A stretch of DNA of 64,000 nucleotides from Golubevia sp. BC0850 (taxonomy: Eukaryota; Basidiomycota; Exobasidiomycetes; Golubeviales; Golubeviaceae): NCBI GenBank assembly GCA_012976225.1, contig JAAVVG010000008.1:806001-870000 (forward strand), in the 5' to 3' direction. Position 1 is the first letter of the stretch. Each line of letters begins with the position of its first letter. Shown here piece by piece: positions 5,393-60,534 of this stretch. The position numbers and the translations under genes are program-made. The notes beneath the pieces were generated by a model. The model searched no databases, was not told where the DNA came from, and saw only the letters and a list, made by a program, of their open reading frames with translations.

Positions 5393-7448
5393 ATGGCAAA
5401 GAGAGTCAACGAGCATTCTTCCCAATCCGAAGCACCTTCTGCCAAACGCAGTATCACTTCAGAACAACAGCAAGCTCTCAAAGTTCAAGAGGCTCAGGAT
5501 GCTTTGGATAAACTGGACTACAAGACTACAGAGGGATTGTGCACAAAGGTGAGCGAACGAGAATGAATCGGACATGTAGATTTACTTGGATTGGGTCTTC
5601 GTTCTACCTACGTTTGCTCTATCCTTTTATCCATCTTCTGACTCCGGTCCTTCCAAATCCAGGTGATCAACTCCAAATCTACTGATTCCATTCAACCGTT
5701 GCTCATCAGTAGCAAGAGTTTGGGATCAAGAGGAGAGGCTTACGAGGCAGTGAAAGATGTGGAAAAGGCGTTGGCAAAGAGAAAAGTCTTCAGGTGAGTT
5801 TGGCAAGTGGTCTGCCTCTTGGCCTCTTCTGAGTTCTCTTTAAGCAACTGTAATAACGATTTATTGACTTTCCTGTCAACTCCCAGACTCACTCCAAAGC
5901 TGGATTCGCCTACCTCAGGCTCGCAATTCACCACTTCAACCTCGCCAGAAAGCAGCAGAAGAACACTGAGGCTTCCGACCATCTCCACTTCATCGACTAC
6001 AAAGATCTAGCGAAAGAAGTTCAAGCTTCAGCAGCCAGAGGGAACAAGAGTCGCTTCAACAGAGGTTCTCCCGACCTCTTCCTCAAGCTCTTCTCTTTCG
6101 CCGACGCTCCATCTCTAATGAGATCAACTTCCGTCTCCAAGGCTTGGAAAGAGCAGATCGACGGATCCTCGGAACTATTCCGCTCATTCAATATGGCAGG
6201 GAAAGGAGAGCAGATCTGCAAAGGATTGGGGGTCTTCAGCAAGAAGTCCAGGGATTCGATGAAGAACATCACACTCGGGGTGACAGATTATCCCGATGCA
6301 TCTCTCCAAGAACGACTAAAGAATCTCCTCAAGGCATCATCCACGAGCATCAGAGTTCTCTCAATTGGTCATCAAGCAGATCTGTCCAAGCTGATAGTTG
6401 ACGTAGGAGGAGAGTGCAACAACCTGGTCGTTTTAAAATTCTACGTCGAGGGGAGTGAGAACAACTTATTCGACCCAAACAAGGAGGAGGGAGTCTTGGA
6501 ATTCTCGTCATCTTGGAAAGCCTCACTAAAGACGCCGGAATGGACATCAGGGGATGAGAACTTGGCATGCAACGATGCTCTCTTGGAACGACTTCGAGGA
6601 GCAAGAAAGGTCAACATCAGCAGCACCCAGCTCACCTCCGCCTGGGCCGTGAAGCTTCTATCATCAAATCCAAGATTGAAAGAATTACGTCTACTTACGG
6701 GAGACAGCAGCCAAGTCGATAGCATTCCACCAATGAATCTTCCCAACCTCACCCATCTCTTCCTCGGCCCTCCCCCAAGATCAACTCAAACGGGTGACTC
6801 AAGCCTCTTCTTCCAGGAACTCAACACGCCCCATCTAAGGGAGTTGCAAGTCTGCAACATCAACCCTTCAGACCTTTCTCATCTGAATCCGGAGGTTCTA
6901 CCCGAACAGCTGGTCATTGAAGATCTACCAATCACAGACGCGGCCAGCGCGAAAGGGGTCGCCTCGTCTCTTATCAACTCAATCAGAGAATGGAAGGAGC
7001 TTTGGTGGCTCACTATCCGGCTTCCCGGGTCTGCCTAAACTTGAGGCCCCTTCTACGAGCACTTAATCTCTCTTCTCACTCCTCTATCGAAGACGAGCCT
7101 TCTCTCTGGATTCAAAGACGAGGTCCCTCTTCCTAGCCTCAACTTTCTCAAGTTCGGAAATCATGGCACGTCTGTCCATTCTACAGTAATCGACGGGTCT
7201 GAATTGGCAGCTATGGTTGCTGGAAGGAATGCAGCAAGTCGTGGGCTTCCTTTCAAGGATGTTGTGCTCGCCGCTCAAGGACTATTGGAGCATGCGGATG
7301 CAGCGCCTTCAGACGAAAGACCAACTTTCGACTCACCTCAGCTTCCGGCCTGCATCGTGGGAAAATTCCCGTCAAAGCAGATCTGTCCACCAAATCTTGG
7401 CTGGAGAAGCATGTTGAGGTGGTTCTTGAGGCGAAGGAGTGGATTTGA
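5393..7448 (+). pseudogene. TPR/F-box/LRR family, copy A (least damaged, but disrupted)
   Basis: Exon 1 is 5393..5548 (52 codons, begins MAKRVNEHSSQSEAPSAKR). Exon 2 is 5663..5793. Exon 3 runs from 5887. Exons 1-3 encode TPR-like helix pairs (ALDKLDYKTTEGLCTK; SKSLGSRGEAYEAVKDVEKA; GFAYLRLAIHHFNLA). An F-box follows (PDLFLKLFSFADAPSLM, then VSKAWKEQIDGSSELFRSF), then an LRR-like solenoid with repeated leucine strands. Exon 2 has 131 nt where the intact phase needs a multiple of three, so it joins exon 3 out of frame. In exon 3 the frame meets TAA at 7036 and TGA at 7042 and then continues for 130 codons in the family pattern (PFYEHLISLLTPLS). The conserved C-terminal tail (SWLEKHVEVV, ending TGA at 7446) is readable one frame over. 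The F-box could only be made from an internal start. I infer a recently decayed host gene of Pof3/Dia2-like architecture. Confidence 0.8.
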
Positions 7449-8375
7449 TCACACTTATGCTTTGTGAGTGCGCTTTCTTCGACCAAATTGAGCAAGTGCT
7501 TCCCGGTTGATATGTTTGCTGACGATGACTCCAGAATTTCCACGCGGGAGATCTTCTCAATCTCAAACTAATTACCAAACTCGTTAATCGGTCTTGAACT
7601 CCATATATGACCTCTGCATCTTTTCCGAGCAGACTATATTGACCTGAAGAGATTGTTGGAGACGGGAGCTCCCCCACCTCCAAATCGTTAAAGACGCTCT
7701 CGTAAAGGATGAGATTCTCCGACATAGTTTTGAGTTTTGTAAGAGAATAAAAAAGAGAGTCAAGCTTGTGTAAAAAGTGGTTCAATGGATGGAATTGAGA
7801 AGGGGAAGAAGTTGGATCGATCCACGATGGATCGACCTTTCACAACTTTCGAGAAGCCAACCACCGGCAAGTCTATTCGAACCAGACTCATCCTTCAACC
7901 AAAATCCCAATGCGGAGTTCTCGAAATAGTTCTTGAGGATATTTGTGCCGTATGGAGGATCAAGGCTTTGCTGATAACGTAGTCATGAGCAAGCGAGCGA
8001 CGGTGCGACGGATCTCTTGGAGTCGACATCTTCAAATGTGAAACGGGGTGGAAGGCTGGAAGGCTACAGCATTCCAGAATGGAGATGAGCTCTTCAGTAC
8101 TGCATTTCGAAGATATGGTTCCGACAAGAGCCACAATCAAAGCAGTTTTTCTGGTCCCATAACGAGAAGGAGTGCTGCAGAATGAAAAGACTTGAGACTT
8201 GAAACAGTTCAAAGCCAGAGAGAGGCGGAGACGAAATTGAAAAAGAAAAAATCGGACAACATGGGTCGTAAAGTACTCTTGGGGGTAATGGATCAGACGT
8301 GAAGGAAAATACTGAGACTGGAACTATTGAGTGGCGACTGGACCTTTCCCTCTTTTTTTGGAACTTGATTAGACT
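7449..8375. other. Intergenic with unexplained short open frames
   Basis: Downstream of copy A, a GTGAG donor-like site lies 13 bp after the tail stop. Small open frames include a plus-strand 65-codon frame from ATG 7785 and minus-strand frames at 7372-7785 and 7895-8212. None has a family signature or convincing splice partners. The right end contains the 3' region of the membrane protein gene. Confidence 0.4.
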
Positions 8376-10971
8376 TCAACCTTGCTTTGAGGCCACGTAC
8401 GAAGCTACAGCTGGCAGCAAACTTTCTCCGTGTTCGAGACTACGATCTTGATGTATACGCAAGATTGGATTGAAAGCAGCTAGGGAGGTTTGATGGTGGG
8501 AGAGCTTGAGCGGAGGTGATGGACGAGCGCTTATTCCTAGTAGACCCAAAACAAGAACTGATACAAGGAGAGCTACCTGAGAATATTAAAATTGAATTGG
8601 ATAGTCAGCCTGTCTATAGAATAGAATGCAGGGAATTCCGAAAGAGCGAGTGCGCCGAATCTGAGATGAGACTTACCAGAAGGTACCAGGTGACGCTAGT
8701 CTTGACCACCTGCCTATATTTGAACTCCAAAGCATAAATTCTTCCCGTCCCAACAAAGTAGGGAAGGGTATATCCCGCATCAAGTCTTCCAATCATAGCC
8801 TCAAGATTGGGCATGCTGAAGTAAGAGAGATCTCCAGCACGATAGCTCTCGTTTCCGAAGCTGGAGGAGAAGGGATCTAAAATTCTATCAGGAGTATTGG
8901 AGTTTCTGTCTGCATTCAGAGAGCTAAAACAAAGGAGTGGGGTATAGAGGTTCTATCAGCACCTCCCCCCGAGTTCAGAAAAGTTCAAGTCTCACTCTTC
9001 TTTCTCACCTTGAGATTCTCGATCTAACCTAGGTACTTACCCTGCATCATTGATCTTCTTCCTTGTCTGTCTGAAGATCCAATTTGTTAGATCTGGAGGG
9101 ACCAGCCCTCCGTTTGGCTTTCCTTGACTAATTGAGCCGGAAGCGTGCAAATCATGTCCAGAACTCTTGATACCAACTGTATGAATCTCTGAAGAGGTAT
9201 TCTGACCTTTGAAGATGTAGGTCTCGATCAAAGACAGGCAAACAGCGCAGTCTGAGAGAGTAGGAGACTAACAGGTCAGCGTTGATTCCTTAAGATCACT
9301 GAGAAATCCAATCCCAGGGACTCACCCCATCTAGTTTCTCCTGTCTTGTCTGTCCAAGTAGAAGAATTCCATTTGGGACTCTCCTTGGACGTCTGAGCTA
9401 GTACGACATCAATGGAGCCTGAGCCCTATTCCAGTGGCTGAGTTTCAGAATCCATGTTGAGATGAGTGCCTCTTGCTACACCGTCAAAGGAGATGGCTGT
9501 CTTCATGAGGGGACCTATCATTCCTGGGATTGGCCAAGGTTTCTCGCTGTTGGAGAAACGTTGAGGTGAATTGGGATCTCCATATCCATTAGCAAAATCG
9601 ACCTTGTCCCAGATCGACTCTGCATCTAGATCCAAGAACAGCCCGTGAACGAGGCTTATGGGAATGAAGAAAAAGGCGTAGAGGCTGCTATCCAAGGCAA
9701 AGTTAGTTTGAAAAAAGCTTTCATTTAGAGCTAAGCATTTGACTCTCTGACCCCAGCGAGGCCAAAAGAGATCTGAGACGTCTTGATGATCAACAAAAGC
9801 TGAAGAAACGCTGTTGCTACGTAGACCCTGATTTGGATTTGGCTTGATCTGTTGGAGAAAGAGTTGACTTCAGTGGATTCCCGTCAAACTTGAGCTCAAA
9901 GCCGAAGATCAAAGTCGACTCACATCTCTGTAGGCTCCATATCCATAGCCTTCTGGCTCAAGCACTGCTATGAAAATCTCTGGAAAGTAAACAGTATGAT
10001 TATTCTCTGGATTCAATGCTTCTAAAGCAGCAGAGGGAGGGTCCGCAGGTCCATAAGGCTTGAATTCATCGACACTTTGCTCTGCTTGAGTCAGAGTTCC
10101 TAGAACGGGTTTCCAATTGGAAGACGTTTCTTGAGGAGCATATCGAACATTCAAATCAACGCAACGAGCATAGAAGAATCCGATCCCGGTAGAGAGTAAG
10201 AGTGAGAGAATGAAAAGAAGTAGGCACCAGAGTGACGCGAGATTGGAAGATGATCTCTTGCCACTGCGATAGCGAAGAACACGGAAAGCTCCCATAAGAC
10301 CAACGCTTTCAATCCAAGAGTCTAGAAGAGAGATAGAAATAGGAGAGGGCGGAGAAGAGCCATTTTGGACAGCTGCTTCGACGAGGACCGTCCATACTGC
10401 TATCTCGAAGTGAGGTTGAGCGATCTTCTGAAGTACGAAGGTGCATGAGAGACCGATAGCTCCTCCAATCATACCAACAGCCGCACGACTTGATGAAATT
10501 AGAGAAAGAATGGATCGACGAGGAGAGGCGTTTGATCAGTCCCAATGTGGATGAGGTCGAGAGATCAGTTTCAAGTTCGCTCACCTGATCGTCAAAGATT
10601 GGTGGTTAAGAGCGGTAGCTGGAATAAAGTATCCTACAGTACCGGATACAGCTGATGGAGGTGTAAAAAGAGAGATAGAGGAGGGAAAAGGTCTAGTTTC
10701 TATGAATGTGCTCAAAGACTCTTGGAGCGTACTCACCTAGAATGACCACAAGAAGCCCGAAATCAAGCCAGATTGATGAAACTCGCTGTGAATTGTAGAT
10801 GTCTTCAGGAGAAGTGGTGTGGAACAAAGGTTGATATAGAGGGACTTGACTAGAGGTGGAAGTTTCGGTAGGGAGAGCTGGACGGTGCTTAAATGTCGTT
10901 CCAAGAGAGTCTGGAGATGTCTTCAAGGGGATCGAATTTGACCGATACGACTTGGATTCTTGACCAAACAT
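8376..10971 (-). CDS. Predicted multi-pass membrane protein, 661 aa, eight exons
   Basis: Exons on the minus strand are 10971..10737, 10651..10585, 10488..9924, 9848..9482, 9418..9326, 9251..9041, 8923..8677 and 8576..8376, totalling 662 codons in frame. A cytosolic-looking N-terminus (MFGQESKSYRSNSIPL) precedes hydrophobic segments: WLDFGLLVVIL, VGMIGGAIGLSCTFVL and SLWCLLLFILSLLLSTGIGF. A large polar domain follows, with several N-x-S/T sequons (NHT, NES) and paired cysteines (DCAVC). A final membrane helix (VALLVSVLVLGLLGI) and a short basic tail end the protein. This suggests an N-terminal helical bundle, an extracellular or lumenal domain and a C-terminal anchor. I do not recognise the family. 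One junction is weak: the open frame carries TAG at 9426, which lies inside a 63-nt intron (9481..9419) with donor GTGTAG, branch-like CTCAAC and acceptor CTCAG. Removing it restores the frame exactly. Confidence 0.75.
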
Positions 10972-11263
10972 TTCGATAAAACGAATGGGAGTGATGGGTG
11001 ACGGGTGACCAGAAAGAATCCAGATTAAGATTGCCAATCGGTCAAGCTTTGAACCTCTCGATTTTCTTAGGATCGCTTCAAAATTAACATCAATTTGAAG
11101 ATTTCTATAGATCAAAGAATTAGAAAAGTGTGAAACCACATCTAGGACGTATGCAAATGACACGTTGACGAGACAACATGGCAACTTGATGGTCTTTCTG
11201 ATGGTCTTTCGTCACCCTCGACTCAGCTATATCTTCCTTCGAGAGCCACTCAAGTCGGCACAC

Positions 11264-12032: not shown

Positions 12033-12104
12033 CTCCCAAGAGCCGAGCTCTCTCCTCTCTTCTCTCTTCTCTTGCCCTCACCCTACTCCAATTACAACTG
12101 TCAG

Positions 12105-26504: not shown

Positions 26505-27953
26505 TCAAACGCAATTGCCGATGTGAAGGTCTTCAACAATTCATTTCAGCCAAAAGATTGTGGCCTTATCTGCTTTCACAGGAATCTCAGACTTCAGGTA
26601 TCTTATCACCGAACTGGGATGAGAAGATCTGAAAGCTGGTTCCCCCTCTGAAGCGGTAGCGTCCAGAAGGTCGAGGAGTCCGTTAGCGATTGCAGCCACG
26701 TCTCCAGATGAGCAACCTGTGCTTGCAGCTTTCCTTGCTCCGACCAGTGCCGCTAGATCTGAGTCTTCGATGACTACAGATGCGTTGAGACCAAGTCGCG
26801 GTTCTACTCTGAGAAACTTCAGCCCTGGAAGTGGAATTCTCTCTCGAAAGCCGGCGCTGGTGCTCCTCCCGGGAGAGCGGCGTGAGAAGCTGTAGTAGAT
26901 GTTTGTAGAAGACGGAAGGAGTTGATGGCGGAAATGGCGGAAGAGCGACTACCAAGCACCATAGCTTCGGCAAGTCCTTGATCGAGTCGATAAGAGCGGA
27001 GGCAGCTGCTTTGGCAGAGGCGTGATCCGTGATCCGTGATTTGAAGGTCGTAGAGAAAGAGCTGCTCGAGAGAAGATGTAATGCTGAAGAAAGAAAGATC
27101 TTGGGGATTGACGCGAGCAACTTGAAGATTTCTCATTCTTGGCGTGTTGAGGTTCTTGAAAAAGAGACTCGAGTCTCCAGTTTGAGTCGATTTTGGAGGC
27201 GGATTGAGGAAGAGATAGTTGAGGTTGGGCAGATTCATTGGTTCAATGATGTTGACCAGAGTCGCCTCTTCCGTACGTAATGATACCTTCTGAAATCTTG
27301 AATTTGAAGATAGAAGCTTCAGGGCCCAGGCGGAGGTGAGCTGGGTGCTGCTGATGTTGACCTCTCTTGCTCCTCGATGCCGATCCAATAAAGCATCGTC
27401 GCATGACAAGTTCTCATCCCCTGATGTCCATTCCAGAGTAACCAGTGAATCTTTCTAGTCAGAAGGAACTTCAAGAGTCGTTTTGCCTCTGTTGGTGGGG
27501 GGGGGGGATTTTCTTTCCCTTTCTCGTGGAACTAAGCACGACCAACTCGTTGCTTTCACCGGCCACCCCATGTATCAGCTTGCAGAGATCTCCTTGATGA
27601 CCTACTGCGAGAACCTGGAGACTTTTGAATGATTTCTTGTGAGATTTCCCAGTCGTTTTTGTAGAGGAGCGTCCAGCTTGTCATCAGATTCCAGTTCCAT
27701 TCTTCGAATCGAGTCCTTGCTCCGTGCGATGAAAGCAAACCCAGGCAGAACGAACACTCAATCAAGTAATCTCCTCGATCCAATCTCGTTTGCTTGCCTT
27801 GGTACACATCTCTTCCGTAGTCTTGTAATCCAATCTGTCCAAAGCATGTTGAGCTTCCTGTAGTTTGAGGGCATGTTGCTGTTCTGAAGTGATGCTGCGT
27901 TTGGCAACTGGTGCTTCGGATTGAGATGAGTACTCGTTGGCTCTCTTGTTCAT
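26505..27953 (-). pseudogene. TPR/F-box/LRR family, copy B, F-box deleted
   Basis: The minus-strand leader exon starts at ATG 27953 (MNKRANEYSSQSEAPVAKR) and ends at DYKTTEEMCTK before a GC donor (GCAAGC). The sequence then jumps straight to the start of the LRR part (27730 onward, RIEEWNWNLM in a shifted frame). The rest of intron 1, exon 2 and the entire F-box are missing. The LRR part is recognisable (CDDALLDRHRGAREVNISST, MNLPNLNYLFLNPPPK) but broken by a G-tract (C on the coding strand), a stop near 27457 and frame changes around 27020-26700. The tail (SEIPVKADKATIFW) reaches TGA at 26505-26507. It is closest to copy E, with long stretches nearly identical at nucleotide level. It cannot make an F-box protein, and any product would be a leader or a truncated LRR. 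Confidence 0.82.
27497..27507. repeat. Poly-G tract, 11 G, inside copy B
   Basis: A run of 11 G on the plus strand. On the coding strand it is a C-run where copy E has only CCCCCC, so it is an expanded homopolymer within the decayed LRR region. Confidence 0.8.
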
Positions 27954-32452: not shown

Positions 32453-34335
32453 ATGAACAAAAGAGCCAACGAAGACAATCAATCCGAACAGGAAGCATTG
32501 CCAAACGCAGCATCACTTCAGAACAGCAACATGCTGTCAAAGTGAAGGAAGCTCAAGAGGCTCTGAACAGATTGGAATACAAGACTGCAGAAGAGCTGTG
32601 TACCAAGGTGAGTCTTGGGACTCAGATGCTGGAAGGAGAATCGACTGGCTAAGAATTAAGATTGAGTCTTCGACTCTTCGTTCTGCTCGATCCTTATCCG
32701 CTCCCTCCCTCCTTCCCGTCTCTCCCAATGCAGATGATCCATTTCAAGTCTATCGACTCTACTTAACGATTGCTGATCAGGAGCAAGAGTTTGGGATCAA
32801 GAGGAGAGCCTTGCGAGGCGGTGAAGGATGTGGAAGAGGCGCTGAGAAAGAAGAAGAATCTACAGGTCAGTACAATGAAGGTCTCTATACCCTTCGATTA
32901 GCTGTTTACTGATGAAAGGATTTTCGAACCATGATACCTCAAACCAATAGATTCATCTCAGAGCCATGTACGCCTACCTCGGACTAGCTCTTTATCACCT
33001 GGAGCTCGCGGAGCAGGGCCGCTACGACGACGTCGGAGGTGAAAGACGCCCTTCCATGGGAAGAAACTTTGAAGAATTGAGAGAAGGAATCAGCGCATTC
33101 AAGAAAAGAGAGCTCAACAGCCGTTTCGAGAGAGTTTCTCCCGACCTCTTTCTCAAACTCTTCTCCTTCGCCGACGCCCCTTCTCTCGTTCGATCAACTT
33201 CCGTCTCAAAAGCTTGGAAGGAGTCGATCGACGGATCTTCGGAGCACTTTCGTAGCTCTAGAATAGAAAGGAAAAGGAGAGCAGATATACAAGGGGCTGG
33301 AAGTCTTCGGTCGTAGGAGCAAGGATTCAATTCGAAGGGTGGAACTGGAATTCAAGAACGATAATGAGCGCGAGCTCGACGCCTCTTCAAAAGCAGCACT
33401 GCGCAAAGCCATCAAGCCATCTTCTCAACACATCAAATTTCTCTCAGTATCCCATCAAGCTGATCTCTGCGACTGGATAGTCGACGTTGGTGGAGAATGC
33501 GATGGAGTTTTGGTGCTGCGTTCTTTAAGAATAGACGAGGAAGAAGACCGTTTTAGACCCACGAAAGGGCAAATCAAATTCAAGTTTCCATCTCATTGGA
33601 AAGCACCACTCTCTCAGTTTAAATGGATGTCAGGGAGTGGGAATCTGGTATGCAAAGATGCTCTAATGGAGCGTGTTCAAGGAGCAAGTGAGGTCAAAAT
33701 CGGGAGCACCGAGCTCACTTCTGCCTGGACAGTCAAGTTACTCTCCTCGAATCCCAACCTGATTCAACTGGACCTAAAAGCGGCCGGAAATGGGGAAGTC
33801 GGGGAAATCTCATCGATGAATCTACCGAATCTAATCTACCTCTACCTGGAACCGATTCCCAAATCGAAAGCGACAGGAGACTCGAGCATTTTCTTTCAGA
33901 ACCTTGAAACACCTCAACTGGAGTTTCTCGACCTCACAGGTCTCGATCCCAAAGACCTCGCCTTCATGAAAGTAGAATCGTGCCCTGAGCAGCTCTCAAT
34001 CTGTTATCATCAAAGCAACAAGTCAGCTCACGGCGGAGCAGCCGCTTCTTTTCTCATTCGGTCAATCAAGAACTGGAAGAAGGCTAGACAGACAGCTAGC
34101 AAAAGCCATCACCTCCAAGAACACGCTGCCGAAAGTCTTCTCAGCGCTAAAGACGATTAAAACTCTAGTATGGATTCAGTTCTTGGTGGCCCAACGCCGT
34201 GCTCAGAAATCGAATGTCTCTACTCAGAGATCCCAGTCGAAGCGGACGAATCCACCAGAACTTGGCTGGAGGAGCAGGTTGTTGAACTTGAGGTAAAAAA
34301 TTGGGTACAATGCGTGGTGAGTACTCTCCCTTTTT
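32453..34335 (+). pseudogene. TPR/F-box/LRR family, copy C, disrupted
   Basis: Exon 1 is 32453..32607 (MNKRANEDNQSEQEA). A one-base loss near 32497 shifts the frame before AKRSITSEQQHA. Exon 2 is 32734..32865 and carries TAA at 32764. Exon 3 starts at 32951 and has intact TPR-like helices (AYLGLALYHLELAEQ) and an excellent F-box (SPDLFLKLFSFADAPSLV, VSKAWKESIDGSSEHF). The frame then slips near 33268 and stops at 33314-33316. The LRR part reads open from about 33275 in the new frame (DALMERVQGASEVKIGSTEL, MNLPNLIYLYLEPIPK) to about 34078. There an internal deletion joins IKNWKKA to the later QTASKSHH segment and ends at TAA 34158. The conserved tail (PCSEIECLYSEIPVEADES, TWLEEQVVELEV) follows and runs into a GTGAGT site. 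It is the only copy lacking the tail TGA. Confidence 0.82.
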
Positions 34336-47800: not shown

Positions 47801-48120
47801 ACAAAGGTTCTTTGGGATTCGACAGAAGTTTCCCTGCAGAGGCTAAACCTATCCCAAGAAGATTACAATTGAAAGCTCATCACGTTGCTTATATGGGACA
47901 GGAAGTTAGCTTCACTCCGGCTAGGTGAGTTCGTAACTTAAAGTTGAAGAAGGGCTAGAAGAGAATCAATGTTTACTGACTTGACTTTACTTTTTCCCTA
48001 CTCGAAACCCTCAGATTCAACGTTGGAGATAACGACGAGACCAGCATCGTCACTTCAAGTGGTCCTTTCGTTGTTACTTTCGATCTCAACAAGGGTGAGT
48101 TCTCTTTCCTTTTGCAAATA

Positions 48121-48152
<32 letters not shown>

Positions 48153-48987: not shown

Positions 48988-50320
48988 TCAGACCCACTCG
49001 ACTGCCTCGAGACCTTCAACCTTCTCCTCCGGCCAAGTGATCGTAGCCTCGTCTGCTCTCACTGGAATTCTGATCTCCAGAGTGGTGATCTTCGAACATG
49101 GCTGAGGAGATCCAAACGCTGACTCCTCCCCAGAAGCCGGCGCCTCTGAAGCTTGGAGAAGACCGTTGGCGATGGATGTGACTTGTCCTGATGAGCATCC
49201 CTTCGAACATGCCATCCTGGAGCCAACCAATGCGGCTAGATCCTGACCGTCGATCACAGCAGATGCCGAGAAGACATTGTGACGTTCTAACCTGATGATC
49301 TCCAATCCTAAGAGCGGTATGCTCTCCCAAAAGTCTGCCCGAACCCCCTCCCTGGAGAGTGGGGTTAGAAGCTGGACCAGATGCTCGAAGAAGTTAGAGG
49401 AGATCGAAGATGAATAATAAAATGATAGAGTCCAGAGTTTTGACCAATCTTTGATCGATTCGATAAGGGCAGAGGCGGCTGCTTTGTCGGGAGCAGAATC
49501 TGTGATCTGAAGGTCGTAGAGGAGGAGCTCCTCGAGAGAAGACGTGGTGCAGAGGAAAGTGAGATCTTGTGGTTTGAGGCAAACAACTTCGAGATTTCTC
49601 AGTCTTGGTGCCTTGAAGTTCTTGAAGAAGAGGCTCGAGTCTCCTGTTTGAGTCGAACTGGAAGGAGGGTCGAGGGAGAGATTGTTGAGGGTGGGCAGAT
49701 TCATTAGTGGGATGCTTTCGACTTGAGTTCCTCCCTTCTAACGTAGGCATACCTTCTCTAGTGCTGAACCTGAGGAAAGAAGCTTCACAGCCCAGGCGAA
49801 AGTGAGCTCGGTGCTGCTGATGATGACCTTTCTTGCCCCTTGAAAACGTTCTAAGAGAGCATCGTTGCAGACCAGGTTCTCACTGCCTGATGTTCATTCC
49901 AGAGTATCGAGTGAAGCTTTCCAAGATGACGGGAACTCCAAGGCTTCATGGCCTTCGTCTGGCAGAAATACCATTGACTCTTCCTCCTCTCTACCAGATC
50001 TGAAAACAACCAAATTGTCGCACTCTCCTCCGACGTCGACTATCAGCTTGCAATTACATCCTTGATGGCCGATCGAGAGAGCTCGGAGAGTGCGTGAAGA
50101 GAACTTGATTGCGTTGCTGAGTCGTTCTTGGAGAGAAGCATCGAACACATCTTTGACCCCGAGTGTGATGTTCTTCATCGTTCTTCCGCAGTCTTGTAGT
50201 CGAATCTTTCCAGAACCTCTTGAGCTTCTCGAAGTTTGGGCATGTTGCTGTTCTGAAGTGATACTGCGTTTGGCAGCTGGCTCCTCGACTTGAGCGTCTT
50301 CGTTGGCTCTGTTGTTCATC
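48988..50320 (-). pseudogene. TPR/F-box/LRR family, copy D, F-box deleted
   Basis: The minus-strand leader at 50320 begins MNNRANEDAQVEEPAAKRS. A two-base loss after QQHA shifts the frame. A deletion then joins the end of the exon 1 region (DYKTAEE in the shifted frame) directly to MKNITLGVKDVFDASLQERL, so exon 2, the third TPR block and the F-box are all gone. The LRR part is well preserved (LSIGHQGCNCKLIVDVGGE, NDALLERFQGARKV, SLFFKNFKAPRLRNLEVV) but has TGA near 49897 and TAG near 49739. The final open block runs 49704..48988 and includes the tail PQPCSKITTLEIRIPVRADE, ending W-V then TGA. The N-terminal fusion frame is open for 141 codons, so a leader-LRR product without an F-box is conceivable. 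Confidence 0.82.
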
Positions 50321-51220: not shown

Positions 51221-54200
51221 TTAGTTCTTCTGTTGACCCGACTTGAAGACCTGAAAAGATTCTGCATCCTGTCTTAAATCGACCTTGCTTCCTCTACCAG
51301 TGATTTTCATCTTTTGACCCAAAGACTTCAATCTAGCCCCAAAACTTCTAGAATTCTTCAAAGTATGAAAACTCTCTCCAATTCCACTTTCTCTATTTGA
51401 AGGCTGATTCAAAGTTTCTTGTTTGAAGTCTGAGTTGAAATAAGCTAAACCATCAATAGATTTAGTAGAGCGCATTTTTAGGAAACTTCTGGTCTTGGCT
51501 CTTGGTTTTGGGTTTGACTTCAAAGTAGGTCTTGGAGTAGTTGTGGCAGGAAGATTTGAAGGAGATGAAACTTTTTGAAGAGTTGGGAAGACGATCTTTT
51601 CTTCTGAAGTTTGAGTTGAGTCAAAACCAGTCTGAATGGCAATTGATCTGCGAACTAATTGGTTTTTACGATTAGATCTAGGTTCGAAAATGTTTACTGG
51701 AGCTGAAGGTGAGGAAGTTTCGTAGAAAGTTGATCTGTTAGATTCGACCTGAGAACTTGAGATTCCATTAAGGTAGTTAAGACTTTTAGAATGTTTGAGT
51801 TGATTTTTTTCATTTCTCTTGATACCTTCCAGGTCTCTTCTATCATTTCTGACACCAAGTGAACTCTGGTTCTCATTCTCATTTCTAACTCCACCGAAAT
51901 AACCATCTGTTAATGACTTCAATATCTCTCTAGTCTTGGACTTTGATTTACTAGAAGATAAAGTTCTAGCTCTTTGATACTGATTTCTCAATTGAGATCT
52001 ACTACTTGATCTAGAAGAGAGTTTTGAAGTTGACTTTGGAGTTGAAGGTGAAGGTGCAGAAGAAGGTTTTGAAGTCGAAGAAGTCTTTCTACCTTTAGTA
52101 TTGATTTTCAAAGGTTCCGATTTTTCGTTCCCATTCTTCAACTTCTCGTCTTTGGAATCTCCCAAACTGACCAATCTCAAATCCAGTTCAACAGCTTTAA
52201 AGTCTAACCCCATCAAACTTTCCAAAGCCCCATCTCTATTCATTTGCATCTTCTTAGCTTCAAATTGTTGAATCTCTTCTCTCCAAGCAGAACCAGAGTT
52301 GGTATAATAAGCTCTCAAATTCTGACTAGATTTGACATTCTTGAGAGTACGAGATTCTTCAGATTTAGAAACTGCTTGAAGAGAAAAAGACAACAAGAAG
52401 TCAGGTCCAGCAGAATGATGTTTCCTTTCTAAAGTCTTCCTTTTGTCTTGTCTTCTCCTTCTCAAAGTATGTTGAAGCTCTTCCTTTTCTTTCTCCTTCT
52501 CCTTCTCCTTCTCCTTCTCCTTCTCCTTCTCCTTCTCATCTTCTTGAGCCCCCTCTTCTTGTATTCCGGCCTCTTTTCCAGAAACCACTGAAAGAGGTCT
52601 AGGCATTCTAAGAACTTTCATTTCTCTTCCATCACCATTTCTTCTGTCAGAGAATTCTCTTCTTAAACCTCTTTGATTCTCTTCAGTTTTAGAACTCCAG
52701 GAAGGAGAAGTATGGTAACTCAACGAACTTCTCTTTCCAGAAGAAGATCCACTTGTACTTCCGATCGAGATAGAGTTGACCGAGTTTCTAGAGATGGAAT
52801 TCTTCGAGCTTAACTCTTCGCTTTCCAAAATCTTAGAACTTCTTCTTTGATTGGTACTTTCAACAGGTACCGTGACTATTGGTTTCAGGTTCAAGACCTT
52901 TGACTTGGGAGTTCTAGGAGCTTCGTCTCCATCGGGGTCTGAAGTTTCTTCTGTATTCTTTGGAATGGATGATGTAGACGAAGTCCTTCTCAATCTAGAT
53001 TTGGGGATGTTGGGTTTTGGAGCTGCACTTGATTCCTTAGAGCTGGAGATAGTGATTCTGGAATTGTTTGAGGAAGCCAATGATTTCTCTGATCCGTATT
53101 CACTTGTTGGATGGAATAGAATTGGAGAGGTCGGAGTCTTGGGAGTGATGGGTGAAGAGAATGAGTCTTCTACATCTGAACTCGACTCTGAAAGTTGAAG
53201 ATTCTGAGCTTGAGGTACTTCTTTCGTTGGAGTTGAAGTCGAAGTGGAGGTTGAAGTCTTGATTTGAGGTTGACGAATCGGAGGACTAGGGAAAGTAGGT
53301 ATGACAATCCTTCTAGCAAAAGGATCAGGTTCATCAAAAGAAGCTCTCAATGCTCTAGTTCTCTCAAATCCATTTATATTTCCTTCATTTCCAGCCCCAA
53401 AGTAATCTCCATCTAACAAATTCTCTGATCTAGACTTCTTAAGGAGACCGTTGACGGGTCTTTGAGGTTTAGGATGACTTGGAGTCTTGGGAGAAGTCGC
53501 TGGTCTTTTAACTTTGATATTTGGAGAAGTATTAGATCTGGGAGAAGTCAATGGTCTAGAAGATCTACTTGTAGGAGAGACTTGAGGTTTGAACTTGTTG
53601 ACAGTCGGAGAAGAGGGTTTTGAAGAACCACCGTTTGAAATCGATGACCAGAATTCATAAATCGAAGAAGCAGTACTTGAACGTTTTTGAGAGGAAACTT
53701 GACTTGAAAACTCGCTTTCCAAGTCCGTAGAACCAATACTTGACATACTCAGGTTCAAAGGATTGAATGACTTCTTGAACCTTCTACGAGTTGGAGAGTT
53801 TGGAGTTGGAGGCTGAGGTTGAAAAGGAGAGCCCAAACTTTCATTACTAAACTTGGGAGACATAGATTGTAAAGGAGAGATATAACCAGATCTATAAATG
53901 GGCTCGATGTCGATGTCCATCAGAGGTGAACTTGAATTCGAGTTGAAAGGTCTAGAGATTTCCATTTCTTTTTCTTCTTCTTCTTTCGAAGAGTCTCCAT
54001 TTCCAACCATCAGGCTCTTAAAGTTAGAGAAGCTTAGTTTTCTAAACGGAGAGTTCCTACCATTACTATAATCATGACTCTTCGAATGATTTTGAGATGT
54101 AACAGGAGATTCAACTTCATCTCTAAATTCAACTCCTTCACTTCTTTTTGAACTTCTCTGATTCTGTTTCTGATTCCCATAATCCCAGCTACTAGAAGCA

Positions 54201-55696
54201 GAAGAAGAAGCTAGAGATTGATCAAAAGAACTTGGAGTTGAAGGAGTTTGTCCCCTACTAAGAGATTCCGCCTCTGCATCTTCAATTTCATCATCTTCAA
54301 AAGAATTGAAAGTAGAATTTCTATGAGCTGAAACCTCTTTTGGAAGTTTCAAAGTTTTTCTCTTGAGGTTTTCACCGTCGAAGGTAGATCTTCCGATAAT
54401 AGAAATTCTCTCTTCTTCCCTTTCATCATCATTAAAGTAAGCTTCCAAAGAATCGTCAGAACTAAACATGGACTTTGATCTCAAATCTCTTTGACTAGTG
54501 TTGACTATGATTCCAAGATCCAATCCTAACCCTAATCCTTCACCTACACCTTCTCGAGATCTAATTGTCGAAAGCTCTGAATTTCGGTTAGAGGAACCTG
54601 GAAGTTGAGTCTCAAAACTTCTAGGAGATGTCTGAAAGGAATTTGAAGAAAGTCTTGATGATTGAGAGTGAAGAAGATTGGATTGATTGGGAATCGGATA
54701 AACTGCAACTTGAGTTAGATTACTATCTTCAGAGGTTTTCTCTCTCCTATCACCCACTTGTAGATGTTGATTCCTGACGGACTCTTCTAATTCTACTTTC
54801 AAGGTCTTTGGATTTCTTTTCAAAGTACCTTGATCTAGGAATTGAGAGCCTGAGTCTTTTCTTTTGCTTCTACTTCTTTCAACCTTCTTGCCTTGCTCTT
54901 TTGTTTTCGAGTTGGATGAGTCAGGTAGGTTTTCTAGGAGGCTAGAGCTTGAAATCGAGGTTGATTTGTCTTCTTGAGAACCTTTAACCCCTTCTCTACG
55001 ATCAGCGTCGTCTCTTCTCCCTCCACCTTGTTGTTCTTCTTCTTCTTCCTCATCTCCGCCAAAGTAAAATCCATCATCATTTCTATAGAGTTCAGGATCA
55101 ATTCCACCTCCATAAGCCAAACCGCTTGAATCTAAACCGTCTGTCTCTTCAAACTGTCTTCCAATTCTGGATCTCTCGTTTCTAAACCCTCCACTTTCTT
55201 CCAAGTCTCCTTCTTCTAATTGAGGATCACCTTCTGTTAAAGTTCTATCCTCCAAGTTTCTAAGGTATGAGCTAATCCTCTTAGCAGAAATCCTACCAAC
55301 CGGTAAATCGAAAGACCCTCTATCTTCAACATAATCATCTTCATCGGTACTAATGAACTCTTCTGACCATCTATTTCCATCTCCGGTTATCTCAACCTGA
55401 GCATTTGAAGAATTCAAAGATCTTACATGATTTGAAGGAGAAGTTAAAGAAGGTTGAGTTCCGGATGAGGAGGTGACATGTTCATCTTTTGACTCTTCTT
55501 TCATCTTCAATTTCAACTTTACAACGTTTGAGTTTAGAATACTCGACTTTCTGGAAAGATGAGGGAATTGAGTCTTGGAAGTTGTTGAAGAAATTGAGCA
55601 ACTTGGAGCGTGAGAGAGAAATTGTGGATGTTGAATTGAGTCTGAGGAATCTGATAAATCGTGTTTTGAAATTGGGAATGGAATACTTGAAGACAT
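51221..55696 (-). CDS. Large Ser-rich, mostly disordered protein, 1491 aa, single exon
   Basis: One uninterrupted minus-strand frame starts at ATG 55696 (MSSSIPFPISKHDLSD) and ends at 51221; an upstream extension would need a GTG start. Serine, asparagine, proline and charged residues dominate, and there is no signal peptide or membrane helix. Notable parts are the acidic segment FYFGGDEEEEEEQ, SP-rich clusters near the middle (SPTSRSSRPLTSPRSNTSPN), and a pure Glu/Lys dipeptide run encoded by a 6-bp CTCCTT tandem at about 52490-52537. A more ordered stretch reads LRAYYTNSGSAWREEIQQF and FKAVELDLRLVSLGD, and the basic tail has SFGARLKSLGQKMKITG. Many SP and RxxS sites suggest a kinase-regulated scaffold, for example at the cell cortex; this is inference only. 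I do not recognise the family. Confidence 0.85.
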   Translation of the reverse strand: MSSSIPFPISKHDLSDSSDSIQHPQFLSHAPSCSISSTTSKTQFPHLSRKSSILNSNVVKLKLKMKEESKDEHVTSSSGTQPSLTSPSNHVRSLNSSNAQVEITGDGNRWSEEFISTDEDDYVEDRGSFDLPVGRISAKRISSYLRNLEDRTLTEGDPQLEEGDLEESGGFRNERSRIGRQFEETDGLDSSGLAYGGGIDPELYRNDDGFYFGGDEEEEEEQQGGGRRDDADRREGVKGSQEDKSTSISSSSLLENLPDSSNSKTKEQGKKVERSRSKRKDSGSQFLDQGTLKRNPKTLKVELEESVRNQHLQVGDRREKTSEDSNLTQVAVYPIPNQSNLLHSQSSRLSSNSFQTSPRSFETQLPGSSNRNSELSTIRSREGVGEGLGLGLDLGIIVNTSQRDLRSKSMFSSDDSLEAYFNDDEREEERISIIGRSTFDGENLKRKTLKLPKEVSAHRNSTFNSFEDDEIEDAEAESLSRGQTPSTPSSFDQSLASSSASSSWDYGNQKQNQRSSKRSEGVEFRDEVESPVTSQNHSKSHDYSNGRNSPFRKLSFSNFKSLMVGNGDSSKEEEEKEMEISRPFNSNSSSPLMDIDIEPIYRSGYISPLQSMSPKFSNESLGSPFQPQPPTPNSPTRRRFKKSFNPLNLSMSSIGSTDLESEFSSQVSSQKRSSTASSIYEFWSSISNGGSSKPSSPTVNKFKPQVSPTSRSSRPLTSPRSNTSPNIKVKRPATSPKTPSHPKPQRPVNGLLKKSRSENLLDGDYFGAGNEGNINGFERTRALRASFDEPDPFARRIVIPTFPSPPIRQPQIKTSTSTSTSTPTKEVPQAQNLQLSESSSDVEDSFSSPITPKTPTSPILFHPTSEYGSEKSLASSNNSRITISSSKESSAAPKPNIPKSRLRRTSSTSSIPKNTEETSDPDGDEAPRTPKSKVLNLKPIVTVPVESTNQRRSSKILESEELSSKNSISRNSVNSISIGSTSGSSSGKRSSLSYHTSPSWSSKTEENQRGLRREFSDRRNGDGREMKVLRMPRPLSVVSGKEAGIQEEGAQEDEKEKEKEKEKEKEKEKEKEELQHTLRRRRQDKRKTLERKHHSAGPDFLLSFSLQAVSKSEESRTLKNVKSSQNLRAYYTNSGSAWREEIQQFEAKKMQMNRDGALESLMGLDFKAVELDLRLVSLGDSKDEKLKNGNEKSEPLKINTKGRKTSSTSKPSSAPSPSTPKSTSKLSSRSSSRSQLRNQYQRARTLSSSKSKSKTREILKSLTDGYFGGVRNENENQSSLGVRNDRRDLEGIKRNEKNQLKHSKSLNYLNGISSSQVESNRSTFYETSSPSAPVNIFEPRSNRKNQLVRRSIAIQTGFDSTQTSEEKIVFPTLQKVSSPSNLPATTTPRPTLKSNPKPRAKTRSFLKMRSTKSIDGLAYFNSDFKQETLNQPSNRESGIGESFHTLKNSRSFGARLKSLGQKMKITGRGSKVDLRQDAESFQVFKSGQQKN
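52490..52537. repeat. 6-bp tandem repeat encoding Glu-Lys dipeptides
   Basis: CTCCTT units repeated about eight times on the plus strand encode alternating Lys and Glu in the Ser-rich protein. The perfect unit conservation marks a length-variable coding minisatellite. Confidence 0.85.
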
Positions 55697-56524
55697 TCTA
55701 GTTTTGGTATGTGGGGAGAAAGAGAAGTAGGGATCTTGTTGAAAGTTGAAAAGTAGTGTAGAGTAGGGTGCGGATGAAGAATGACTGAGCCAAAGGTCGA
55801 TGCGCACTTGGCAACCGACTCTCTGATCTCAGCTGAAATTCTCTTCTGACGAAAAGAGTGGAAAAAAAGTGAAGAAAGAGTCTGGAAAAGAGAGTCAGAT
55901 CTCTTAAAAGAGAGAAGATGGGAAGATTTGGAGTGAATGTTACAGAAGAACGAGGAAGGGCGAAGAACGAATCTTGCCAAATCGATCTCACGAGGTGCTT
56001 TTTCAAATTCTGAAAAGTAGTTCATGCTTTTCATCCCCGAAGCGTTTTCCCAGCTCAAATCGCGGAGAGGTCCAACTCCGATTATTGATCATTGTTATCC
56101 CTTCTTTTCCCAAAGGCAGAGGGGGGTCTTTCCTTCCCTCCTACCAATCCGTTTTCCAAACAACTTTTGCTAACGAATTTAAGCCAAGATTACCCCTTCT
56201 AACGGAATCTACAAAACTGGTTCTAGAAAACACGTTGTTTCTCAACTCAGCAGTCCCGAGAAAGGTCGCGTATCGATCCCGTGTGTGGTCATGCGGTACA
56301 AGTTTAACGGTCTAGACGTTAATCTGTCGACGGGACTGCTCTTTCTACTTCCGGCAATCTCTTTCTCAGAATGAAAGCACTCAAGGAAGAAACGTTGGGG
56401 TCAAAGAAAGGCTACAAAAAGGTGGGCTTCAGATGATTTCTTTTCCCCCCTCCTTATCCTCATCAAACTTGATCTACTCTCTCCTCACTCCTCTTCAAGA
56501 ACTCCCTCCTATCTCAATTTCAAG
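55697..56524. other. Divergent intergenic region with an inverted repeat
   Basis: About 830 bp between the start codons of the Ser-rich gene (minus) and the WSC gene (plus). It includes the promoters of both and a 10-bp perfect inverted repeat at 56249-56258 and 56331-56340. No coding exon is supported. Confidence 0.45.
56249..56340. repeat. 10-bp perfect inverted repeat with 72-bp spacer
   Basis: AGCAGTCCCG at 56249-56258 is answered by CGGGACTGCT at 56331-56340. The arms could close a stem around the spacer. The spacer lacks tRNA D-, anticodon and T-arm patterns, so I do not call it a tRNA. Confidence 0.65.
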
Positions 56525-57958
56525 ATGTTACTCGCTTCAACTCTTCTCTTCGCTCTATCAGCATCAGCTTCTCCACTTTTGGAAACTCGTCAAGCTTCGA
56601 CTAGATTCTCACCTGCCGGTGGTAACAAGGCCAATTGGGAGGTGAGTTAATCTTCTCCAACCTTTCTAACTCTCCGATACTAACCTAAATCCTCTCACTT
56701 TCTTCCCAGACTCTCGGATGTGCCATGGACAAATATCCAGATGCCAGAATCCTAACTTCTGGATATACTGAATCATCAAAGATGACGATTGGAACCTGTC
56801 TCAACTATTGCTCTTCTCAAGGAACTCATCTAGCAGGTTTAGAAAACGGAAATCAATGTTTCTGTGGAGCTGATTTCAGAAATGGTGGATCTATCCAGAC
56901 CAACAGTACCTCTCTTCCTGGAAAATGTACTTCCAACGCCAATGGAAACTCGAACCAGAGCGGAGGTGGAGCCAATTCACTTCTAGTTTTCCAATCTAAA
57001 GTCAATCCTATTCCAACTCAACCCCGAGTCAATAACACTTCCTTCGCAGGTTGTTATCCAGACGCAGAGAACAAAAGGTTACTTCCAAACTCAATTCAAG
57101 TCAGTGGTGCTATGACTAATCAAAAATGTTTGACAGCTTGTACTGCTAAAGGTTATGATCTTTGTGGAACTGAATTTAGAAATCAATGCTTTGGAGGGAA
57201 TTCTCAGAACATTCCAATGCCCAAGATGTTGGATTCTACTAGATGCGAGTACTCTTGTGAAGGCGATACTGCACAAGTCTGTGGTGGCGCTGGAGCTTTG
57301 TCGTGAGTATTAAGGTCTTCCTTTTGCTTTTGATTTTAATTTTGATTTTTTGGTTTTCATCATTGATAGAAAACTGACCTTCCTAACAATCTTTCTCCCC
57401 AATGTTTTGCACGCCACACAGAATCTACCTCACTCAACCTGCTCCAGCTCCATCAGCTCCATCAGCTCCATCTCCAATCGTAGTTAATGGAACTAGAACT
57501 TACAACTACAAAGGATGCTACACGTGAGTATAAAAATCTTTGTTTTCCTAACACCATCTCCTCCATCTCCTCATCTGACCCTGTCTCTTCCATTGCAACT
57601 TCTCTCAACAGTGATCGTTCCGACTCTCAAGGAAGGGCTTTAACCGGAAGATACTCTTCAAGTTCCAAGAACACTAACGAAGCTTGTGTTACCACTTGTT
57701 CAAACAACGGATTCAAATATGCTGGTGAGTTGAACTTGAGATTGGTATTTGTCAACTTGATTCTCCAAGCTGACCTCTCCTCTCTCCTCTCCTCTCCATC
57801 TACCAGCCACCGAAAATGGTAACGAATGTCGCTGTGGAAACTCACTAGCCAGTTTCAGTAAAAACACTGCTACCTGTGATGTCACTTGTCCTGGTAATTC
57901 AACCACCTCATGCGGTGGTTCTAACTACGCCATGACTCTTTATCAACTCCAAGCTTAA
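56525..57958 (+). CDS. Secreted protein with three WSC domains, 358 aa
   Basis: Exons are 56525..56641, 56710..57302, 57422..57523, 57612..57724 and 57807..57958 (359 codons). A signal peptide is clear (MLLASTLLFALSASASP). Three WSC cysteine domains follow. The first has LGCAMDKYPDARIL, CLNYCSSQGTHLAGLENG and QCFCGADF. The second has AGCYPDAENKRLL, CLTACTAKGYDLCGTE, CEYSCEGDTAQVCGGAGAL. The third has YKGCYTDRSDSQGRAL, CVTTCSNNGFKYAATENGNE, CRCGNS and CPGNSTTSCGG. A proline/alanine/serine linker (PAPAPSAPSAPS) separates domains two and three. WSC domains bind carbohydrate. With no transmembrane helix or GPI signal at the end (YQLQA), this is probably a secreted glucan- or wall-binding protein rather than a Wsc stress sensor. 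Several N-x-S/T glycosylation sites are present. Confidence 0.92.
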
Positions 57959-58008
57959 TGAGTCGATTCAAATCGGATTCCAAGGACGTTTCTCCCTCTC
58001 TCTCTTCT

Positions 58009-58046
<38 letters not shown>

Positions 58047-58460
58047 TTCATGTCTCTCGGTCATACCTCAAGAAGCTGAAATAAAGCTTGTCACCTGCGC
58101 TCTCAACTTCTCCCCAAATTTCATCCTCTGATCTAAAAAGTGTTATCTCACATCACCTCATTTTCTTTGCTCTTTCCTTCATTCTTGTCTATTAGAACCT
58201 CTCTGCGAAATCTTCTTCTTAACTTTTATCAGTCTTTTGACTTTCCTTTTCTGCTTCTTTAGTTGGACTGGAATCAATTAGATGCTGTTGGAACATGGAT
58301 GGTTTTGGAAGCAAGAAGCCTCTTCCTTTCTTCCTTCCTCTGACCATCTTGACTTTTCACCCAAAATTGTTCAAACGTTCAATCTTCAGCAATCCTCAAA
58401 GAAGTTACAGGGAAATTCGTCCTTCTTTAACCTTTACTAATCACAGCACAGCTTATCATA
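57959..58460. other. Intergenic between the WSC gene and copy E
   Basis: About 500 bp, starting with the WSC 3' UTR and a long CT microsatellite. No supported gene. Confidence 0.5.
58012..58043. repeat. (TC)n microsatellite, 32 bp
   Basis: Alternating T and C, uninterrupted for 32 bp, about 50 bp after the WSC gene stop. Confidence 0.85.
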
Positions 58461-60534
58461 ATGACAAAGAGAGCCAACGAAGATACTCAATCCGAACAGG
58501 AACCATCTGCCAAACGCAGCATCGCTTCAGAACAGCAACATGCTACAAACTGAAGGAAGCTCAAGATGCTTTGAACAGATTGGATTACAAGACAGCAGAG
58601 GAGTTGTGTACCAAGGCGAGTTACTTCACCACGCTGCTTTTCGAGAATGTATTGGCTGAGAAGAAGTCTTCCTTCGTTCTAAAGTCTCCCTGCTGGCCTG
58701 CTGCTCATTCTTATCCTCCTCGTCCTTTTCCCTTTTTTGCTTCAGATGATCGACTCAAAACCTGATTCAATTGAATCGTTATTGATGAGAAGCAAGAGTC
58801 TAGGATCAAGAGGAGAAGTTCACGAGGCTGCGAAGGATGTTGAGCAGGCACAGCAAAAGAAGAGGAATCTACAGGTGAGTTCAAGTGAAGGTTCTTCTTT
58901 GTTCTTGCTCGCTTCTTCCTAGCTCTCAACTGAAACATCATTCTGCGGACCTTGATCCCTCAAATCATCAGACTCATCTCAGAGCGGTGTGCCCCTACCT
59001 CGGACTAGCTCTTCATCACTTGGAACTTGCGGAACAGGACTACTACGACGACGACGACGAGAGCGAAGACCGCCCCTCCCTGGAAGTAACCTTCAAAGAT
59101 TTGAAAGAAGGAATCAAGTCACTCAAGGCCAGAGAGCTCAAGAGCCGTTTCGAGATCCCGACCTCTTTCTCAAACTCTTCTCCTTCTGTGATGCTCCTTC
59201 TCTCGTCAAAGCGACTGCAGTCTCGAAGGCTTGGAATCAATCTCTCCTTGGCTCATTGGAACTCTTCCGTAACTTCAAGATGGAAGGAAACGGAGAGCGA
59301 ATCTGCAAAGGACTGAAGATCTTCAGTCAACGGAGCAAGGTCTCAATTCGAAAAACGGAACTGGAATCTGATGACAAGCTGGACGCTCCTCTACAAAAAC
59401 GACTGGGAAATCTCATCAAGAAATCATCCAAGAGTCTCCAGGTTCTCGCAGTAGGTCATCAAGGAGATCTCTGCAAGTTGATACATGATGTGGCTGGTGA
59501 AAGCAACGAGTGAGTCGTGCCAAGTTCCACGAGAGAGAAAAGGGGAGTCCTGCCCCCCAACAGAGGCAAAACGACCCTTGAATTCCCGTCCAACTGGAAA
59601 GATTCACTGGTTACTCTGGAATGGACATCAGGAGAGGAGAATCTGGCATGTAACGATGCTCTCTTGGAACGTCTTCGAGGAGCAAGGGAGGTCGACATCA
59701 GCAGCACCGAGCTCAGTTCGACCTGGATCGTCAAGCTTCTGTCGTCAAACTCAAGACTAGATAGTGTGTCTTTATCGCATGGAGTAACTCAAGTCGACAA
59801 CATTCCACCGATGAACCTGCCCAACCTCAGCTATCTATTCCTCGATCCGCCTCCAAAATCAACTCAATCTGGAGACTCGAGCCTCTTCTTCAAGAACCTC
59901 AACCCACCAAGACTGAGAACTCCTGAAGTCGATCGCTTGAGAACACAAGATCTCTCTTTCCTCAGCACCACGTCTCCTCTCGAAGAACTCTTTCTCTACG
60001 ACCTTCAAATCACGAATCACGCCTCTGCCAAAGCAGCCGCGTCTGCTCTCATTGAATCGATCAAAGATTGGCCAAAGCTTTGCAATCTAAAACACCACTT
60101 TCCGGGACCTACTCCATCCACCTTTTATGAGCAACTAGTTCAGCTTCTAACTCCACTCTCCAGGGAGGGAATTCGAGCAGGCTTTCGAGAAAGAATGCCG
60201 CTACCAGGTCTGCGGTCTCTCACACTAGAACCGGATCCGGATACAGATTCCAACCAATCCACGGAAATTGACAGTGCAGATCTAGCAGCACTGGTGCGAG
60301 CAAGGAAGGCGGCAAACTCGAGTCAGTCGTCTGGAAACGTAATGGCAATCGCCAAAGGACTCCTCGATACTTTGGACTCGAGCCCTTCGGAAGGAGAACC
60401 AGCTGTCAAATAACCTCAATCCTCCTCTGAAATCGAAGACTTGGAATTGCAAACGCCGGTGAGAGGGGGTGCAGCCATGAAATCTTGGCTGCAGGAGAAC
60501 GTCGCAGATCTCAAGGTGCAGGCATGGGTTTGAT
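58461..60534 (+). pseudogene. TPR/F-box/LRR family, copy E, disrupted
   Basis: Exon 1 is 58461..58615 (MTKRANEDTQSEQEPSAKR). One base is missing after EQQHA, so the frame hits TGA, and the donor is GC (GCGAGT). Exon 2 is 58746..58874 (MIDSKPDSIESLLMRSKSLG) and is intact. Exon 3 starts at 58972 (THLRAVCPYLGLALHHLELA). A frame change near 59150 separates the TPR block from the F-box (DPDLFLKLFSFCDAPSLV, VSKAWNQSLLGSLELFRNF). TGA at 59511 and TAA at 60411 interrupt the LRR and tail parts, which are otherwise open for 296 codons (NDALLERLRGAREVDISSTE, SLFFKNLNPPRLRTPEV). The tail (SWLQENVADLKVQAWV) ends TGA 60532-60534, then a GTGAGT donor. It has the fullest length of the five copies and is closest to copy B. 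Confidence 0.82.

Follow-up and report, generated by a model that had tools for sequence, protein, structure and literature searches.

F-box gene families turn over fast, and the plant F-box superfamily is read as a product of birth and death. Pof3, an adaptor of SCF (Skp1-Cullin-F-box) ubiquitin ligases in Schizosaccharomyces pombe, has the domain order TPR, F-box, LRR. The SCF adaptor Dia2 of Saccharomyces cerevisiae has TPR and LRR parts, and its TPR domain binds Ctf4 and Mrc1 and promotes ubiquitylation of the CMG (Cdc45-MCM-GINS) helicase (PMC11405719). The plant superfamily is large and lineage-specific and includes many pseudogenes, a pattern termed genomic drift (PMC3030570). The wtf genes of S. 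pombe are highly enriched on chromosome 3 and subject to pervasive non-allelic gene conversion, with nine of the 25 reference genes named as likely pseudogenes (PMC6526906). In Caenorhabditis, the KSS/ksl genes encode F-box proteins that evolve fast and whose solenoid is likened by the authors to an LRR domain; 78.4% of ksl genes (439 of 560) lie on one chromosome, and some F-box proteins, in the nematode KSS systems, are antidotes in selfish elements (PMC12680543). Here we analyse a window of 64,000 nucleotides from the basidiomycete Golubevia sp. BC0850 (positions 806001-870000 of contig JAAVVG010000008.1, called C63 here), which holds five copies, A to E, of a TPR/F-box/LRR gene. At a probability of roughly 0.7, we read them as part of a C63-bound birth-and-death family of putative SCF-type adaptors, mostly broken, whose tracts have been rewritten by recent ectopic gene conversion. 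In the open-licence literature, as judged by titles and the openings of abstracts, we found no fungal family of this kind described; one paper, on gene conversion in Caenorhabditis paralogues (PMC3966223), has a single mention of F-box.

The first-pass annotation of the window had named dozens of members in one clade as a test of its reading, and a search of this genome (25.77 Mb in 64 contigs) with exon 3 of copy A did find dozens. It yielded at least 110 matches, a lower bound since 107 of 164 candidates were scored, and these merged by strand and distance into up to 75 loci. A match at E 1e-10 or better is present in 69 of them; the other six lack one, and two of these (C10:427 kb and C56:9 kb) also match the F-box family of the ORF beside copy E (table 1), so 69 is the safer number. 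C63, at 995 kb, makes up 3.9% of the genome and would be expected to hold 2.9 of the 75 loci; it holds 32, a comparison in which the loci are not independent. This concentration was absent from the first-pass annotation, as were the decay and the shared tracts described below. We examined 50 loci, comprising 31 on C63 (a 366-bp fragment at C63:961 kb was excluded) and, of the 43 elsewhere, 19 drawn mainly from the stronger matches. Most align along nearly the full length of L014, the undamaged member at C63:164 kb that served as reference for lesion calls and residue numbering, and have phase-0 introns after codons 52 and 96. Among the exceptions are copies B and D, a fragment at 396 kb, and L061, L068 and L069, in which one or both introns are absent in the alignment. 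Spliced retrocopies are unlikely because the introns are retained at the same places, and the spacing of the copies rules out a tandem cluster.

A midpoint-rooted tree of the 50 codon-aligned proteins, which is only approximate because the copies exchange tracts, places those of C63 in one clade of 33 tips (support 0.79). The clade includes two outsiders (C6:704 and C20:199 kb) and divides by position on the contig, with copies at 16-396 kb separated from those at 604-984 kb. Neighbouring copies on C63 switch orientation 23 of 30 times (one-sided P 0.0026), perhaps through deletion of direct neighbours.

Almost all of the copies are broken. Lesions, like the shared tracts, were read from the assembly sequence, using a spliced protein-to-DNA alignment written for the analysis, and stops of the window copies were also read directly. 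Damage is present in 29 of the 31 examined C63 loci and, by two comparisons, in 17 or 18 of the 19 elsewhere, with in-frame stops in 27 and 15, respectively; at distant loci (35-45% identity) alignment errors may account for some of the lesions. The lesion-free members are L014 and L011 (963 kb) on C63 and L056 (C2:726 kb) elsewhere; L059 (C12), read without its 3' end, is free of lesions in one comparison but not in the other. A gene count in such a genome could therefore list dozens of genes where few work. Decay seems to be common among this genome's F-box genes: 14 of 150 scored F-box-like domains contain a stop, and a search with the open F-box ORF (open reading frame) beside copy E, which belongs to a different F-box family (table 1), gave 100 matches, 44 of them with in-frame stops. 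The query itself was the only one of these on C63, so the concentration on this contig appears specific to the TPR/F-box/LRR family. Damage resembling repeat-induced point mutation was rejected: in nine trios, C-to-T changes ran at 3.8% at CpG versus 3.5% elsewhere, G-to-A changes at 4.8% versus 4.0%, and C followed by A had the lowest rate (2.7%). Stops recur in different copies at tryptophan codons 305, 314, 348 and 466, which are TGG in most relatives and TGA or TAG in the affected copies; either repeated mutation or exchange may have produced them.

Many neighbouring copies share long exact tracts. Among all 1225 pairs of the 50 loci, 19 have identical runs of at least 100 bp: 18 lie within C63 (out of 465 pairs there) and link copies 5-62 kb apart, none joins C63 to another contig, and the sole pair outside C63 (C12/C2, 257 bp) has similar flanks too. 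The longest runs measure 1986, 1406, 1393, 1103 (two pairs), 1091, 1003 and 834 bp, followed by shorter ones. Uniform divergence simulated at 94% identity gave a longest run of 179 bp in 200 simulations; observed pairs at 73-94% identity have runs of up to 1,406 bp. Pairwise identity in 75-bp windows, profiled for 11 pairs, revealed sharp mosaics. At 16/32 kb, identity is complete between about -108 and +942 and mostly 55-80% beyond it; identical tracts extend from -121 to about +1229 at 118/135 kb, -70 to +1280 at 944/968 kb, +432 to +1407 at 963/984 kb and +588 to +1413 at 894/920 kb. Introns are included wherever they fall within a tract. The 73/80-kb pair (98.6% identity) is identical along nearly the whole gene.

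Exchange appears to be local. Seventeen of the 18 long-run pairs on C63 are less than 60 kb apart and the last is at 62 kb (permutation mean 2.7, with as many in 0 of 5000 permutations), although several pairs have a copy in common and so are not independent; run length drops with distance (Spearman -0.62). Eight pairs are in the same orientation and 10 in opposite orientation. In most compared pairs the flanks are unrelated beyond about -150 and shortly 3' of the stop codon, and in many the homology gives out at -1 to -143 on one side and soon after the stop codon on the other, at varying positions. Similarity reaches farther for 164/326 kb (about +384), 235 kb/C6:704 (about -250) and the C12/C2 pair (at least -774), and 73/80 kb has an 81-bp patch of 85% identity about 540 bases downstream. 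A mobile element that ends where the gene does was a candidate, but the borders vary and no terminal repeat was noticed, in sequence not systematically searched for one. The tracts also contain lesions: stop 32 is found at 16/32 kb, stop 228 at 73, 80, 118 and 135 kb, and stops 266 and 305 at 944/968 kb. Neighbours thus have broken sequence in common too. Undamaged genes have such runs as well: 365 bp of L014 recur exactly in the broken copies at 118 kb and 135 kb, and 1,003 bp of L011 in the broken L010. Recent ectopic gene conversion is the best reading of these tracts, as far as an assembly can tell.

Comparable pairs were noticed elsewhere. L004 (C8:219085-222219), a different F-box gene, has a 97% copy about 46 kb away at C8:266143-267508. 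The match covers no more than a gene-sized stretch, 1359-2725, of the 3135-base query, so the exchange process may reach beyond this family. In the other F-box family, two inverted same-contig pairs (C9:443773 (-)/468763 (+) and C7:432225 (-)/518462 (+)) tie in score and agree in how many stops they have and of what kind, as recent exchange or duplication would produce, and a C4 pair (399121/468348, both -) is nearly equal at 40.5 and 43.3 bits. L059 (C12:570 kb) and L060 (C2:539 kb) form a recent inter-contig pair with a ratio of non-synonymous to synonymous divergence (dN/dS) of 1.15 (dN 0.128, dS 0.111), and their reading frames differ near the C-terminus.

Undamaged copies encode proteins of about 600-620 residues, comprising a leader, TPR-like helices, an F-box, an LRR-like body and a C-terminal tail. 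The leader has two KR-type basic clusters, possibly a nuclear signal. A profile built from four members and exon 3 of copy A matched TPR regions over residues ~13-125 (SPAG1 and DNAJC3 at E 0.004; TOM70, SGT and PP5 more weakly at E 0.1 to 1.2) and F-boxes (GID2 at E 2e-4, FBXL2 at E 0.001), with TPR and F-box in the right order. In Pfam searches (E up to 1), the F-box-like model matched five of five members (best 3e-5) and the F-box model four of five (best 1.2e-5); TPR scores were under the cut-off and LRR_4 reached only E 0.24-0.95. The genome has two Skp1 matches above the cut-off, one strong (C11, E 4.5e-19) and one weak (C8, E 7.6e-4). A splice donor, GTGAGT, lies about 6-15 nt past the aligned C-terminus in 16 of 18 copies (not in those at 118 and 135 kb), which suggests an intron in the 3' untranslated region.

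Selection was estimated within each half of C63 (14 and 16 copies), excluding 12 pairs with long identical tracts. dN/dS was 0.17-0.23 for the F-box, 0.23-0.25 for TPR, 0.28-0.33 for the leader, 0.34-0.51 for LRR, 0.38 for the tail and 0.51-0.57 for the linker before the F-box. As every regional ratio is below 1, positive selection is not shown. The adaptor end of the protein appears to have been kept while the presumed recognition end changed more, and the lowest ratios, in F-box and TPR, point to a family whose members probably functioned as SCF-type adaptors through most of its existence.

The first-pass annotation had gone further and placed the copies in an expanded Pof3/Dia2-like family. 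A large TPR/F-box/LRR family is indeed present; kinship with Pof3/Dia2 is a conjecture drawn from the domain order. The copies might be ordinary Pof3/Dia2 paralogues, once engaged in replisome disassembly and decaying after a burst of duplication, as the identical order of domains and the role of the Dia2 TPR part in CMG ubiquitylation would allow. We regard this as very improbable: about 70 fast-turning-over copies, half of which sit on a single contig, are unlike a conserved single-function gene, and two PDB sequence searches (E up to 10) gave no match to Dia2, the presence of a Dia2 chain in the database being unchecked.

The five window copies illustrate the family at close range. tblastn with pieces of copy A (E down to 4e-105) located the other four where they had been annotated, on the annotated strands, and all five stand singly and in both orientations among unrelated ORFs, as judged by the domain matches of their neighbours. 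The shared leader and LRR-like body hold for all five, with 46-58% protein identity to A across the body in the main matches, and self-comparison of the window gave repeats of 60-315 nt between copies. The annotated order of TPR, F-box and LRR survives only in A, C and E, which have three exons and two introns at corresponding places. None of the five is an intact gene, since each carries in-frame stops and frameshifts (table 1). When the closest relative replaced L014 as reference, C had two stops and E two frameshifts, with the other counts unchanged. The absence of TPR and F-box from B and D probably reflects two separate deletions, because the junctions from leader to LRR differ. The neighbouring ORFs, by contrast with the copies, are open and match DEAD-box helicase, BRAP2, Cnd2, eIF3d, VID27, WSC and abhydrolase domains (20 ORFs scanned), showing that this stretch can keep long frames open. 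One open frame of 1535 residues (51224-55828, -) gave no Pfam match at E 0.01.

Table 1. Copies of the TPR/F-box/LRR family in the window, with one F-box ORF of a different family for comparison. Coordinates are window positions; residue numbers and lesions refer to L014.
Feature	Coordinates	Strand	Structure	Stops	Frameshifts
Copy A, damaged TPR/F-box/LRR gene (tblastn, alignment to L014)	5393..7445	+	Exon 1 5393-5548, exon 2 5663-5793, exon 3 from 5887; F-box about 6067-6180, LRR-like body about 6190-7035 (borders by eye)	2: 7036 (TAA), 7042 (TGA)	2: near 5774, 7336
Copy B, damaged	26508..27953	-	Leader exon joined to LRR-like body; TPR and F-box missing (gap = residues 73-206)	3: 27764, 27457, 26543	5
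Copy C, damaged	32453..34307	+	Three exons, both introns kept; residues 469-541 missing	3: near 32764, 33264, 34158	2: near 32495, 33257
Copy D, damaged	48991..50319	-	TPR and F-box missing (gap = residues 49-221); 181-bp exactly identical run in common with copy at C63:894 kb	2: 49896, 49740	2
Copy E, damaged	58461..60530	+	Three exons; F-box about 59154-59270 (by eye)	2: 59511, 60411	3: near 58545, 58616, 59152
F-box ORF of a different family, beside E (comparison only)	61129..62394	-	Open single frame, 422 aa		

Several observations weigh against our explanation. The Pfam scores of A and L014 fall under the curated cut-offs (F-box-like, E 0.0015 for A and 0.27 for L014), and the best Pfam match of L014, also below cut-off, is an unrelated glycosyl-hydrolase N-terminal model (residues 10-98, E 0.0019). 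The model of A's exon 3, predicted from nine pieces of the window, is poor, with a mean pLDDT (predicted local distance difference test) of 55. It gives no support for the annotated F-box or TPR, where pLDDT is under 55; about residues 281-380 reach 85-93, with strands and helices alternating. No fold match attains E 0.001 (the best, 8iah_Y, is at E 0.0024), and weak matches of the same exon include the F-box/LRR proteins D3 and COI1 (E 0.04-0.05). The 73/80-kb pair could equally be explained by a recent unit-sized duplication. Finally, stops are found in matches of at least 100 bits to unrelated families: 39 of 73 such matches carry them in this family, compared with 2 of 15 for HSP70 and 5 of 20 for Cpn60/TCP1, the control searches reading through introns, which can add stops. 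When weaker matches are included, the control figures are 9 of 35 and 9 of 33.

Those imperfect controls, together with the presence of a few lesions in nearly every copy, are what might be anticipated if the lesions were sequencing errors and the identical tracts misjoins of a repeat family. We nevertheless consider such an assembly or consensus artefact decidedly unlikely. The same lesions recur in different copies inside identical tracts, the long ORFs beside the copies are open, and there is no N in the window or in the sequence of the examined loci. Moreover, each mosaic tract is contained within the homologous unit, whose flanks on either side are mostly unrelated, and would call for two false joins per pair.

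On the birth-and-death explanation, gene-sized units would have spread along one chromosome, after which most copies broke and near neighbours exchanged tracts, from a few hundred bases up to about two thousand, by ectopic gene conversion. Undamaged copies would bind Skp1 via the F-box and a target via the LRR and/or TPR part, with the faster-evolving LRR as the likely recognition face, and turnover would be a sign of targets that change or are lost, not of a housekeeping role. This leaves the ready breakage of the copies, and their restriction to one contig, unexplained. With fresh kilobase tracts and a concentration on one contig, where more than nine-tenths of its copies are broken, the family offers a natural system for studying how ectopic recombination shapes recognition genes. 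It also bears on the question of whether fungi have F-box based conflict systems.

The copies could be, or have been, antidotes, drivers or immune-like adaptors in a genetic conflict, recognising fast-changing selfish or foreign proteins; exchange with damaged neighbours would then reshuffle the recognition parts of a few working genes. The concentration of mostly broken copies on one contig, the tracts common in either orientation, the exact runs that undamaged L014 and L011 have in common with broken copies, the lower dN/dS of the F-box relative to the LRR, and the parallels with the wtf (PMC6526906) and ksl (PMC12680543) genes are all consistent with such a role. Set against these, dN/dS is below 1 in every region and no linked toxin turned up, although none was sought. 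The candidate that C63 represents a mating-type chromosome was not supported either, as STE3 is on C62 (one gene in two adjoining pieces) and homeodomain matches are on C61 and C4, a set in keeping with a basidiomycete. On balance, we think a conflict role unlikely. A related proposal, quite unlikely in our view, is that about thirty mostly broken copies act as an archive, from which ectopic conversion over short distances supplies tracts to the very few genes that work; if true, new target specificities would be made in this way during genetic conflict, whether for antidotes, drivers or intracellular immunity.

Having preferred birth and death with recent conversion, we can set the family beside the systems introduced above. 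With Pof3 and Dia2 it shares the order TPR, F-box, LRR, its LRR solenoid being putative and any kinship conjectural; it numbers up to 75 loci, most of them broken, with a concentration on C63. It differs from the plant F-box superfamily in that more than 90% of the examined C63 copies are damaged and that tracts are limited to the contig. The KSS/ksl genes resemble it in combining an F-box product that has a solenoid with a chromosome bias. They belong to another lineage, however, no toxin partner is known here, and the phrase 'gene conversion' has 0 occurrences in the portion of text available for that report (PMC12680543). With the wtf genes the family has in common enrichment on one chromosome (C63 is not known to be a whole chromosome), many damaged members and non-allelic exchange. 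The product here is a TPR/F-box/LRR protein; the likeness to wtf is one of genomic behaviour, and any meiotic drive by this family would be hypothetical.

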